NCBI RefSeq assembly: GCF_900109035.1
Contig: NZ_FNYD01000011.1
Coordinates: 1-64,000, forward strand
Source of the DNA: Cribrihabitans marinus
GTDB taxonomy: Bacteria > Pseudomonadota > Alphaproteobacteria > Rhodobacterales > Rhodobacteraceae
Direction of reading: 5' to 3'
DNA: 64,000 nt
The position numbers and the translations under genes are program-made. The notes beneath the pieces are model-generated. The model was not told the origin of the DNA and did no database searches. It saw nothing but the letters and a program-made list of their open reading frames with translations. Shown here in pieces: positions 20,347 through 27,027 of the stretch; positions within the stretch are counted from its first letter, which is position 1, and each line of letters opens with the position of its first letter.

Positions 20347-20380
20347 TTTGTGATCACACGAAAAATCGTGTGATCACAAA
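20347..20380. promoter_or_regulatory. Perfect 15-bp inverted repeat with two TGTGATCACA boxes upstream of sucC
   Basis: The arms TTTGTGATCACACGA (20347-20361) and TCGTGTGATCACAAA (20366-20380) are exact reverse complements around AAAA. Each arm contains the self-complementary box TGTGATCACA (20349-20358 and 20369-20378), 20 bp apart centre to centre, so on the same face of the helix. The site lies about 110 bp before sucC. The same paired box occurs before sdhC. It is probably an operator for a regulator of TCA genes; a terminator role is unlikely because there is no T tract and the boxes recur elsewhere. Confidence 0.7.
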
Positions 20381-20556
20381 AGCCGATCTCGGGCATCATG
20401 ATTCGCGAACCCGGGCTCGGGACACCGGGTGAAACCGGGGCGGAGCGACTTAAACGGCGGTCAGCCCAGCAAATTCGGAACCCGCGACCGGTTCCGTTCG
20501 TCACTTCCGGGATGTGCGGCCCTACCGGAAAGGCCGGCCTCGCGGTCCGTCCCGAC

Positions 20557-20587
20557 AAAAAAGGCGCGGAACCGATGGTCCCGCGCC
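20557..20587 (-). terminator. Rho-independent terminator of mdh
   Basis: On the minus strand an 11-bp stem with one mismatch (arms at 20577-20587 and 20563-20573, 3-nt loop) is followed by six T residues (20557-20562). It lies 30 bases after the mdh stop and should separate mdh from sucC transcription. Confidence 0.85.
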
Positions 20588-20617
20588 CTGCAACTTGCCG
20601 ATCTGTCTGCCCGACGA

Positions 20618-21580
20618 TCAACCGAGGGAGTTGTCGATGCCCTTGCAGGCCTCGACCAGACCCTTCACGGCGTTGACCGAGTTGTCGAACATCTCCTGCT
20701 CTTCCTTGGTCAGCTTGACGTCGACGATGCGTTCGATGCCACCCGCGCCGATCACGGTGGGCACACCAACATACATGCCCTTCACCCCCAGTTCACCGTC
20801 GCAATAGGCGGCGCAGGGCAGCACGCGCTTCTGGTCCTTCAGATACGCTTCGGCCATCTCGATCGCCGAGGTTGCCGGCGCGTAATAGGCCGATCCGGTC
20901 TTGAGAAGGCCGACGATCTCGGCACCGCCGTCGCGGGTGCGCTGCACGATGGCATCCAGCTTTTCCTGCGTGGTCCAGCCCATCTTGACCAGGTCGGGCA
21001 GCGGGATGCCGGCGACGGTTGAATAGCGCACGGACGGCACCATCGTGTCGCCATGCCCGCCCAGAACGAAACCGCTCACGTCGCGCATGCTGACCTCGAA
21101 TTCCTCGGCCAGGAAGTGGCGGAACCGCGCCGAATCCAGGACGCCGGCCATGCCGCAGACCTTCTTGTGCGGCAGGCCCGAGAACTCGCGCAGGGCCCAG
21201 ACCATCGCGTCGAGCGGGTTGGTGATGCAGATCACGAAGGCGTCGGGCGCGTTGTCGCGGATGCCTTCACCCACCGACTTCATGACCTTCAGGTTGATGC
21301 CCAGCAGATCGTCGCGGCTCATGCCAGGTTTGCGCGGAACGCCGGCGGTGACGATACAGACATCCGCCCCGGCGATATCGGAGTAGGACTGCGTGCCCTT
21401 GAGCTTGGCGTCGAACCCCTCGGCGGGGCCGGATTCGGCGATGTCGAGCGCCTTGCCCTCGGGGGTGCCTTCGGCGATGTCGAACAGGACGACGTCGCCA
21501 AGTTCCTTCAGGGCAACGAGGTGGGCGAGCGTGCCGCCGATCTGACCTGCGCCGATCAGCGCGATCTTGGGTCTGGCCAT
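20618..21580 (-). CDS. mdh: Malate dehydrogenase
   Basis: The 320-residue LDH-type enzyme oxidises malate to oxaloacetate with NAD+. The N-terminal Rossmann motif is [13 protein letters not shown], followed by the NAD-selecting Asp in [11 protein letters not shown]. The catalytic His lies in [15 protein letters not shown], and the substrate-binding [10 protein letters not shown] loop is present. The start at 21580 ([10 protein letters not shown]) fits the family. It is upstream of sucC on the same strand but has its own terminator. Confidence 0.97.
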
Positions 21581-24666: not shown

Positions 24667-25709
24667 TGACGACCCAAAGGCGGCACAAGACCAATCCGGG
24701 GCGTTTCTTCGAGGATTACCGGGTCGGCCAGACCATCGAACATGCAGTGCCGCGCACGGTCTCGGGGGGCGAGCGGGCACTCTATCACGCGCTCTACCCG
24801 GCCCGGCATGCGCTCTATTCCTCAGACACGTTTGCCGGCGCCTGCGGGTTGCCGGCCAGCCCGCTGGACGATCTGGCGGCCTTTCACGTGGTCTTCGGCA
24901 AGACGGTGCCCGACGTGTCGCTGAACGCGGTGGCCAATCTGGGTTATGCCGAGGGGCGCTGGCTGAAACCGGTCTGGCCGGGCGACACGCTGCGATCGGT
25001 GTCCGAAGTGATCGGGCTGAAACCCAATTCCAACGGCAAGACCGGCGTTGTCTGGGTCCGCACCACTGGACTGAACCAGAACGACGAGGCCGTGCTGGAG
25101 TATGTGCGCTGGGTCATGGTGCGCAAGGCCGATCCGGGCGCTCAGGTCCCGGAACCGGTCGTGCCCGACCTGGCCAAGGCGGTGCCCGCAGACCGGCTGG
25201 TGATTCCCGATGGCCTGGACTTCTCGACCTACGATTTCACCCTGGCCGGCGAGCCGCATCGCTGGGGCGATTACGAGATCGGCGAGACCATCGACCATGT
25301 CGACGGCGTGACCGTCGAAGAGGCCGAGCACATGCTCGCGACCCGGCTATGGCAGAACACCGCCAAGGTGCATTTCGACCTGACCTTCCGCCCCGAGGGA
25401 CGGCTGATCTATGGCGGGCACGTGATCTCGATGGCCCGCGCGCTCAGCTTCAACGGGCTGGCGAACGCGCAGATGATCGTCGGACTGAACGGCGGCGCGC
25501 ATGCCAATCCCTGCTTTGCCGGCGACACGATCAAGGCCTGGTCCGAGGTGCTGGACAAGGCCGAGACCCCGGCCCCGGGCGTCGGCGCGATCCGGCTGCG
25601 GCTGGTCGCCACCAAGGGCGGCGATCCGTTCCGCCTGAAGAACGACGAGGGGCGGTATCTGCCCGAGGTGCTGCTCGATCTCGACTACTGGGCCCTGATG
25701 CCGCTCTGA
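24666..25709 (+). CDS. mch: Mesaconyl-CoA hydratase (MaoC-like)
   Basis: The 347-residue protein consists of two hotdog/MaoC domains (about 10-160 and 185-340). The N-terminal one reads KTNPGRFFEDYRVGQTIEHA, and the C-terminal one contains FRPEGRLIYGGHVISMARAL. Length and layout match the mesaconyl-CoA hydratase of the ethylmalonyl-CoA pathway, which makes beta-methylmalyl-CoA reversibly. Its presence with mcl2 supports this. ATG codons at 24663 and 24666 are both possible; the second is better spaced from the GGGAGAG ribosome site. Confidence 0.9.
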   Translation: MTTQRRHKTNPGRFFEDYRVGQTIEHAVPRTVSGGERALYHALYPARHALYSSDTFAGACGLPASPLDDLAAFHVVFGKTVPDVSLNAVANLGYAEGRWLKPVWPGDTLRSVSEVIGLKPNSNGKTGVVWVRTTGLNQNDEAVLEYVRWVMVRKADPGAQVPEPVVPDLAKAVPADRLVIPDGLDFSTYDFTLAGEPHRWGDYEIGETIDHVDGVTVEEAEHMLATRLWQNTAKVHFDLTFRPEGRLIYGGHVISMARALSFNGLANAQMIVGLNGGAHANPCFAGDTIKAWSEVLDKAETPAPGVGAIRLRLVATKGGDPFRLKNDEGRYLPEVLLDLDYWALMPL

Positions 25710-26125
25710 CCCGGTTCCGGGATCGGGAATACAAGGTCATAGGCCCAGTTGAACACGAAGGCATAGACCACGAAGAACGCGGCAAAGCCCAGGTCCATGA
25801 CCAGTGCCTGCACCAGCCCGATCCCGAGGTAGAGCGCAAAGACCGGCAGCAGCAGGATCAGCAGGCCAAGCTCGAACAGCACGGCGTGCAGGATGCGCAG
25901 GCCGGGCGTCTTGGCGACATGGCCGCGAAGGCGCAGCATCGCGTGATCGAACAGCAGGTTATAGACATAGTTCCACGCCATCGCCAGGGTCGCCCCGGCA
26001 ACACCGACAACGCCGATATCCTGCATCGGCTTGTCGAACACCCACGCCCCCAGCGGGATCACGGTCATCAAACCGATCACTTCGAAGGACACGGCGTGGC
26101 GGATACGGTCTGCGGTGCGACGCAT
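25685..26125 (-). CDS. PACE-family transporter (chlorhexidine-type efflux)
   Basis: The 146-residue membrane protein has two similar halves of two helices each. It begins MRRTADRIRHAVSFEVIGLM, and the second half repeats the pattern in GLRILHAVLFELGLLILL. WNYVYNLLFD and FNWAYDLVFP are the matching helix ends. This is the proteobacterial antimicrobial compound efflux (BTP) layout. The natural substrate is unknown. Its 3' end overlaps the mch end by 25 bp on the opposite strand. Confidence 0.9.
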   Translation of the reverse strand: MRRTADRIRHAVSFEVIGLMTVIPLGAWVFDKPMQDIGVVGVAGATLAMAWNYVYNLLFDHAMLRLRGHVAKTPGLRILHAVLFELGLLILLLPVFALYLGIGLVQALVMDLGFAAFFVVYAFVFNWAYDLVFPIPEPGQSGIRAQ

Positions 26126-26273
26126 GTGGGGACTCCTCGGTTTTCGCCGGGTCGTCCCGGTCTGGCGGCCCGGTGGTCCGGGGGAGGTCGTCCTCGCTTG
26201 ACCCGTCAACATAGGTGCTGGCGCTTGCGGTGCAACCGCGACAATTGATTTCGCCCGCGATAGACTGACGGTC

Positions 26274-26996
26274 ATGCGCGTGCTGCTATCCGCATTTGCC
26301 TCTTTCTGGGCCGGACCGCTGGTCGCCTGCGACCTGGCGCTTGTGCTGGCCGTGGACGTCTCCGGCTCGGTCGATGCAGGCGAATACCGAATCCAGATGG
26401 ACGGGCTGGCAACGGCGCTGCGCGACCCCGTCATCTCCGAGGCACTGGTGCGGGCACAGGCCAAGCTGATGCTTTTGCAATGGACCGGCGCCTCGCGCCA
26501 GCGGATCACAATCCCCTGGACGGTGATAGATTCGTTCGAGGCCGCCGACGCCTATGCCGATGCGGTTCAGTCCGATCCGCGGATCTGGCGCAACTTCTCG
26601 ACCGCCATCGGCGAGGCACTGGAGATCAGCATGGCCAGTTTCGACGATGTCCCCGAGTGCAAGCGTTACCTCATTGACGTCTCGGGCGACGGCAGCTCGA
26701 ACGAGGGGATAGAGCCGACCGAGCTGCATGCCGAACTGAGGGCCCGCGGCATCACCGTCAACGCAATCGCCATCGAAGAGAGCGAGCCGGAGCTGACCGC
26801 CTATTTCTATGAAAACGTCATTGTCGGCGACGGCGCCTTCGTGGTTTCGGCGTCGGGATTTCTGGACTATCCCGAACGAATCCGCCGCAAGCTGCTGCGC
26901 GAAGTTACCGAGCAAACCTCGGACCTGCCCGGCCAGATTCGTGATCACAGGGACGACGTATTGATAACGCTCACATCTTCGCCCCACGCGAAATAA
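26274..26996 (+). CDS. DUF1194 von Willebrand factor A-like exported protein
   Basis: The 240-residue protein has a signal peptide (MRVLLSAFASFWAGPLVAC) and then a VWA-like domain. DLALVLAVDVSGSVD carries the MIDAS DxSxS motif at the start of the mature chain, and LIDVSGDGSSNEG follows later. It matches DUF1194. It probably binds a partner through a divalent metal. The 3' end contains one TGTGATCAC-type box that seems to belong to the sdh control region downstream. Confidence 0.88.
   Translation: MRVLLSAFASFWAGPLVACDLALVLAVDVSGSVDAGEYRIQMDGLATALRDPVISEALVRAQAKLMLLQWTGASRQRITIPWTVIDSFEAADAYADAVQSDPRIWRNFSTAIGEALEISMASFDDVPECKRYLIDVSGDGSSNEGIEPTELHAELRARGITVNAIAIEESEPELTAYFYENVIVGDGAFVVSASGFLDYPERIRRKLLREVTEQTSDLPGQIRDHRDDVLITLTSSPHAK
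26940..26949. promoter_or_regulatory. Third, distal TGTGATCACA-type box inside the DUF1194 gene
   Basis: CGTGATCACA, a one-base variant of the box upstream of sucC, lies 57 bp centre to centre before the paired boxes ahead of sdhC. It may be an auxiliary site, or it may be chance within coding sequence. Confidence 0.4.
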
Positions 26997-27027
26997 CGTG
27001 ATCACAGCCCGCCAAACTGTGATCACA
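26997..27027. promoter_or_regulatory. Paired TGTGATCACA-type boxes upstream of sdhC
   Basis: CGTGATCACA (26997-27006) and TGTGATCACA (27018-27027) are 21 bp apart centre to centre, about 120-140 bp before sdhC. This matches the 20-bp pair ahead of sucC in sequence and spacing. Relative to the putative -10 they lie at roughly -97 and -118, close to the sucC values of -88 and -108. The layout suggests a common transcription factor, perhaps an activator. The regulator is not identified. Confidence 0.65.

Follow-up and report, generated by a model that had tools for sequence, protein, structure and literature searches.

The closest described counterpart of the operators reported here is that of AkgR (RSP_0981) from Rhodobacter sphaeroides, for which the primary paper is said to be Imam et al. 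2015 in mBio. RSP_0981 is a GntR protein for which sucCD, sdh and the genes for 2-oxoglutarate dehydrogenase have been predicted as targets (passages of PMC4344238); it was later named AkgR, has been termed a transcriptional activator, and GTGATCAC is listed among its sites (passages of PMC6365646). The system of Cribrihabitans marinus analyzed below is alike in regulator family, targets and box sequence, and differs in that the regulator gene lies on another contig than the sdh and suc genes. A further relative is the GntR protein PS417_07240 from the deoxyribonate cluster of Pseudomonas simiae, 32% identical to AkgR, which also has GTGATCAC before its own gene, but belongs to a different pathway and genus and possesses a single palindrome at -47 to -40 of the start codon (passages of PMC6365646). 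In R. sphaeroides, sdh and mdh are also predicted targets of a LacI-family protein, CceR/GapR (RSP_1663), but its motif, [A/G/T]GTT-N6-8-AAC[A/C/T], is not that of the C. marinus boxes (passages of PMC4344238).

Literature searches for the 10-mer gave, by title, one bacterial paper, in which it forms part of a primer (passage of PMC12724174), and those for GTGATCAC together with GntR gave one relevant paper. AkgR occurs in the running text of PMC6365646 and, within the available parts of the other papers, in the reference list only; the corresponding parts of PMC5343134 and PMC4052901 have no bearing on the sucC/sdhC boxes. The published passages on AkgR, as far as they extend, make no mention of a fixed 21-bp tandem, a helix-phased -35-like element, or a box at the regulator's own gene.

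In the window, i.e. the whole analyzed stretch of 64,000 nucleotides of C. marinus DNA, paired palindromes precede sucC and sdhC with spacings of 20 and 21 bp, at exactly the coordinates given by the initial annotation, which had ascribed them to a shared but unnamed factor. The relevant features are as follows (no strand is assigned to the boxes).

13758..16715, minus strand: sucA, 2-oxoglutarate dehydrogenase E1 (NCBIfam NF006914)
17305..18210, minus strand: sucD, succinate-CoA ligase alpha subunit (NCBIfam NF004230)
19045..20238, minus strand: sucC, succinate-CoA ligase beta subunit (NCBIfam NF001913)
20273..20278, minus strand: putative -10 of sucC, TATATC, chosen by eye
20298..20303, minus strand: putative -35 of sucC, CTTAAG, 46 bases past the proximal core box
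20349..20358: promoter-proximal member of the sucC pair, predicted AkgR-type box, TGTGATCACA (sequence match)
20369..20378: distal member of the sucC pair, predicted AkgR-type box, TGTGATCACA, spaced 20 bp (start to start) from its proximal partner
20561..20589, minus strand: terminator-like hairpin behind mdh, between mdh and the sucC promoter
26940..26949: third box at sdhC, further upstream, CGTGATCACA, within a DUF1194 ORF (26274-26996), weakly conserved
26997..27006: distal member of the sdhC pair, predicted AkgR-type box, CGTGATCACA (sequence match)
27018..27027: proximal member of the sdhC pair, predicted AkgR-type box, TGTGATCACA, spaced 21 bp from its distal partner
27086..27091, plus strand: putative -35 of sdhC, GTGACA, 59 bases past the proximal core box
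27108..27113, plus strand: putative -10 of sdhC, TAGAAA, chosen by eye
27143..27526, plus strand: sdhC, succinate dehydrogenase cytochrome b556 subunit (NCBIfam TIGR02970)
27537..27908, plus strand: sdhD, hydrophobic membrane anchor (NCBIfam TIGR02968)
27927..29732, plus strand: sdhA, succinate dehydrogenase flavoprotein (NCBIfam TIGR01816)
32342..33121, plus strand: sdhB, iron-sulfur subunit (NCBIfam NF004616)

We predict, with a probability of roughly 0.9, that these boxes are operators of an AkgR orthologue, a GntR-family (FCD) activator of TCA-cycle genes. As the published passages name RSP_0981/AkgR for these targets and this motif, the unnamed factor is most likely AkgR. The paired operators are thus sound as an observation but largely known already, and the idea of one factor shared by sucC(D)/2-oxoglutarate dehydrogenase and complex II fits both the conservation of the pair at the two promoters and the published targets.

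The palindrome GTGATCAC is present at both target promoters. When two mismatches or fewer are allowed, the window yields 14 matches, compared with a mean of 17.6 in shuffled sequences, which places the loose matches at chance level; the three perfect and two one-mismatch matches are the five reported boxes, and the earlier remark that the window holds no other full copy was right. In the entire 4.18-Mb genome TGTGATCACA occurs perfectly four times, and with at most one mismatch at 27 places including these four. Three of the perfect copies are sucC/sdhC boxes, while the fourth is located on another contig, 7 bp ahead of a gene for a GntR/FCD regulator. The pattern GTGATCAC-N8-16-GTGATCAC was found genome-wide at two places, both of them the reported pairs.

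Conservation was surveyed in 149 genomes of the same family as C. marinus, one per genus. The pair is present in 133 of the 149 genera; it occurs with a distance of 20 or 21 bp in 125 of 139 sucC upstream regions and likewise in 90 of 103 sdhC upstream regions. Outside the family, the pair pattern with N12-13 was detected in 2 of 237 genomes of the class, in one of them before another GntR-type gene. The initial annotation had proposed to judge its common factor by the genome-wide scatter of the motif and by its conservation at orthologous promoters; the copies are not scattered and the boxes are conserved, and neither criterion goes against the proposal. The third sdhC box, also described there, does exist, but three boxes within 300 bp are found in only 12 of 103 sdhC regions (box intervals of 56-57 bp in five cases), and we rejected it as a general feature.

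A sigma-70 consensus scan revealed no promoter at sucC or sdhC, hence the transcription starts are guesses. Counted from conserved -35/-10-like elements, with the -10 chosen by eye, the centres of the boxes are near -88 and -108 for sucC and near -98 and -119 for sdhC, not far from the 90-118 bp suggested earlier, although the start itself stays a guess. At sucC, the element [GC]TT[TA][AG][ACT] starts at 45 or 46 past the pair in 48 of 125 regions. At sdhC, 75 segments contain GTGAC[AT] exactly once; in 68 of them it follows the pair after 57-61 bases, and in the seven exceptions it is found near whole helical turns away. The -35-like element thus keeps a constant distance from the sdhC pair, and this distance appears to be helix-phased.

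In the mechanism that we propose, one AkgR dimer would occupy each 10-bp palindrome, with the two dimers separated by 20-21 bp, or two helical turns, along the same face of the DNA and some 85-120 bp upstream of the transcription start. Bound there, they would raise transcription of sucCD(-sucA) and sdhCDAB, probably by contacting RNA polymerase from upstream, and the model further supposes a signal sensed by the regulator. Through the lone box that lies 7 bp ahead of its start codon, the regulator would also damp its own production. GntR proteins are often repressors, and that box is positioned as for repression, which might suggest that the pairs, too, are repressor or dual sites. We consider this unlikely, because AkgR has been termed an activator and because the sucC and sdhC pairs are placed a good way upstream of the putative -35 and -10 elements, at a near-constant distance, an arrangement that fits activation; the factor is probably activating at both promoters.

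The candidate gene for the AkgR orthologue is located outside the window (G000:C9:9868-10512), and its product (P0001) matches both PF00392 (GntR HTH) and PF07729 (FCD) above the cut-off. The perfect box directly ahead of it was counted in favor of AkgR, as was the co-occurrence of regulator and pair: among the 149 genera, 130 possess both, 13 neither, three only the regulator and three only the pair (Fisher p 1.8e-13), and for the sucC pair the corresponding numbers are 122, 12, 2 and 3. The pair without a detected regulator was found in G019, G096 and G114 (listed completeness 91, 77 and 100%), the regulator without an exact pair in G040, G122 and G147, and the regulator with the sucC pair missing in G040 and G136. 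A tree of malate dehydrogenase with 123 rows leaves just five supported independent contrasts, and the phylogenetically corrected sign test for co-loss (median p 0.5) is underpowered and cannot reach 0.05. In 47 of the 124 genomes where both genes could be placed, no more than 20 kb separates the regulator gene from sucC.

Orthology of the C9 gene to RSP_0981 would follow from gene order in one genome, G051. Its PufL has the same sequence as PDB chain 1aig_L, which we take to be the R. sphaeroides protein. G051 has pairs ahead of sucC and sdhC, and an orthologue 80% identical to the C9 protein is encoded about 750 bases behind sdhB, an order that matches the R. sphaeroides locus numbers (sdh 0974-0976, GntR 0981; passage of PMC4344238). 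The 80 named loci drawn with the G051 protein include no R. sphaeroides record, the nearest, at 96% to the G051 protein, coming from Cereibacter ovatus. The own-gene box is present in all 30 loci nearest to that of C. marinus, the latter included, but in only 13 of these 80; it is missing in the other 67 and in G051, and was rejected as a universal feature.

It could be argued that the main user of the boxes is a different GntR/FCD protein, GTGATCAC being common to several members of the subfamily. The C. marinus genome contains 15 FCD matches (14 over the cut-off), with one paralogue 41% identical to the C9 protein, the same palindrome precedes the Pseudomonas deoxyribonate-cluster gene (passages of PMC6365646), and in G295, from another family, a 21-bp pair is found ahead of a different GntR/FCD-type gene. 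Since the sole perfect box outside sucC/sdhC precedes the C9 gene, and since orthologues of that gene accompany the pair, we consider this explanation unlikely, and the AkgR orthologue remains the preferred candidate.

The half-site also resembles the TGTGA of CRP. Sites of CRP and FNR have a spacer (TGTGA-N6-TCACA, TTGAT-N4-ATCAA), whereas in all five C. marinus boxes the half-sites abut. The initial annotation correctly stated that this is no ordinary CRP site, but the sites appear to be of the GntR/FCD type rather than a CRP/FNR variant: binding by a CRP/FNR-type protein was rejected as very improbable in view of the abutting half-sites, of the box before the GntR gene with its co-occurring orthologues, and of the prediction of no CRP-analogous proteins in R. 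sphaeroides (passage of PMC4344238).

Box density amounts to 6.2 per kb upstream of sucC/sdhC, compared with 0.059 per kb in the remainder of the stretches, and 11 control palindromes of the same composition gave at most four copies each versus 452 in the same upstream regions. The pattern read backwards was found in none of the 149 family genomes and in one of 240 genomes (G222); it contains CTAG, which is rare in many bacteria, and is thus a weak control, for which reason we rely on the 11 palindromes. Chance repeats of a short palindrome, which would account for the loose matches in the window, are excluded by these densities and by the pair counts (133 versus 0 of 149 for the weak reversed control).

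More tentatively, and with somewhat less than even confidence, AkgR-type regulators may be helix-phased tandem activators, with two dimers two turns apart and a -35 distance changing only by whole turns, that in one part of the family would also repress themselves via a box overlapping the translation start region, and that would reach fumC in at least one genus. On the prediction made here, one dedicated regulator is tied to the second half of the TCA cycle, from 2-oxoglutarate through to fumarate, in most sampled genera of the family. Its operators vary so little that the targets can be recognized directly in a genome, and their constant spacing offers a simple handle on how a GntR protein activates.

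Re-reading of the window sequence placed five 10-bp palindromic boxes exactly where the initial annotation had described them, and its observation of paired boxes ahead of sucC and sdhC is correct and well seen. The boxes and neighboring promoter features are:

20349-20358 and 20369-20378: box pair ahead of sucC, 20 bp from start to start
26997-27006 and 27018-27027: box pair ahead of sdhC, 21 bp from start to start
26940-26949: third box upstream of sdhC
20589-20561: terminator-like hairpin behind mdh
20273-20278: putative -10 of sucC, assigned by inspection
27108-27113: putative -10 of sdhC, assigned by inspection

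Because of the hairpin behind mdh, sucC most likely has a promoter of its own, with the boxes ahead of it. In the genome of C. marinus (4,175,922 bases, 33 contigs), the box TGTGATCACA is perfect at 4 places and has at most one mismatch at 27, those 4 included, while the spaced pair GTGATCAC-N8-16-GTGATCAC occurs at 2 places only, the sucC and sdhC pairs.

The fourth perfect box (C9:9851-9860, on another contig) lies 7 bp ahead of the ATG of a gene for a 215-residue protein, in which domain profiles match GntR (PF00392) and FCD (PF07729). Judged from this sequence context, the box most likely identifies the factor that uses the pairs, which the initial annotation had left unnamed. The GTGATCAC core precedes the regulator gene in all 30 of the highest-scoring orthologue loci, C. 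marinus included, and in 27 of them lies 8-16 bases before the start codon, as inferred by alignment. Among 80 loci found with the orthologue from genome G051 as query, 13 have the own-gene box; inspection of the G051 locus itself revealed none ahead of the regulator gene. The window itself holds a different GntR/FCD regulator (62308-63081), whose nearest models, PdhR and LldR, match below their cut-offs.

In 149 genomes of the family, one per genus and C. marinus included, a pattern search found the box pair in 133 and its reversed control in 0; 133 possess a regulator orthologue (at least 48% identity; two are cut by contig ends). Both are present in 130 genomes and neither in 13, with three having only the regulator (G040, G122, G147) and three only the pair (G019, G096, G114), a Fisher p of 1.8e-13 that is inflated by the relatedness of the genomes. 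A malate dehydrogenase tree that covers 123 of 139 sucC upstream stretches implies at least 10 changes for the regulator and 8 for the sucC pair, but leaves only 5 supported independent contrasts; the pair follows the regulator in 2 or 3 of these and hardly ever does the opposite (median sign-test p 0.5). These stretches comprise 138 genomes and the window, 10 of the 149 being left out (sucC not found, not listed or weakly matched). Their 300-bp sucC regions contain two boxes in 124 cases, three in 1, one in 1 and none in 13, 12 of the last from genomes without the orthologue. Of the intervals, 113 measure 21 bp and 13 measure 20 bp, and the median distance between proximal box and start codon is 109 bases (IQR 107-112). 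For sdhC, found in 103 stretches (the other 36 were dropped), the counts are 79, 12, 6 and 6; here 80 intervals measure 21 bp and 10 measure 20 bp, and the median distance to the start codon is 132 bases. Eleven control palindromes of equal composition reached at most 4 copies each, versus 452 for the box.

Outside the family, the pair (with N12-13) was found in 2 of 237 genomes of the class. In G295, from another family, a 21-bp pair (L310 992-1020) precedes a different GntR-type gene, whose closest model, PRK11414, is matched below the cut-off; by eye, this gene is divergent to a TonB-receptor-like ORF. Within genome G042 a third 21-bp pair (L072 1501-1529) precedes fumC, a class II fumarase (TIGR00979 match over cut-off).

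Direct activation by AkgR, which we take to be RSP_0981, was reportedly shown by Imam et al. in mBio in 2015. The G051 genome, which encodes a PufL identical in sequence to PDB chain 1aig_L, has the order sucC, mdh, box pairs ahead of sucC and sdhC, sdhA, sdhB and, about 750 bases past sdhB, an orthologue 80% identical to the C. marinus regulator. The Rhodobacter sphaeroides gene numbers agree with this order: in PMC4344238, the GntR-family regulator RSP_0981 has as predicted targets sucCD (RSP_0967-6), sdh (RSP_0974-6) and 2-oxoglutarate dehydrogenase (RSP_0965-62). A scan of named relatives confirmed 465 candidates; among the top 80, which were kept, Cereibacter ovatus ranks first (96% to the G051 protein) and R. 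sphaeroides is absent. PMC6365646, which describes AkgR as a transcriptional activator, gives the palindrome among its sites. The factor behind the boxes is most likely already in print.

Between the sdhC boxes and the putative -35 lies GCCAAAAAACCGCG (27052-27065), the sole exact copy in the genome, with one more carrying a mismatch (reversed control pattern, 2). Of the 103 sdhC regions, 23 have CCAAAWAACC after the box, at a distance of 25-27 bases in 20 of them, and all 19 occurrences of GCCAAAAAACCGC in the 139 stretches are upstream of sdhC; the element may be bound by a second regulator or may bend the DNA. Between sdhA and sdhB (29755-32335) are two same-strand ORFs (glycosyltransferase-like PF13524 plus methyltransferase PF13578; weak sulfotransferase PF00685), and between sucC and sucD, at 18527-19021, there is a domain of glycosyltransferase family 25 (PF01755), so that sugar-transfer genes are found within both TCA gene groups.

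Aligned on the proximal box, the sucC regions give the consensus TTTGTGATCACA...TGTGATCACAAA, and 48 of 125 carry a [GC]TT[TA][AG][ACT] element that starts at 45 or 46. From 90 sdhC segments we left out 11 without a GTGAC[AT] match and 4 with two; in 68 of the remaining 75 this -35-like element starts 57-61 bases past the core box. The 7 exceptions (36, 47, 48, 48, 49, 71 and 80 bases) lie near whole 10.5-bp turns from the mode, with a mean cosine of 0.80 that is reached by 0.00025 of random placements (0.57 with a period of 10, 0.88 with 11). Since the distances were known before this test was chosen and the genomes are related, the phasing is a lead rather than proof. Strict family-wide tandem spacing, phased distance and the own-gene-box split were not met in the available parts of the AkgR/RSP_0981 literature outside the 2015 mBio paper. 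Measured from the putative -10s, the box centres lie at about -88/-108 for sucC and -98/-119 for sdhC, the two promoters differing by one helical turn, a geometry that would fit two dimers on the same helix face, activating from upstream.
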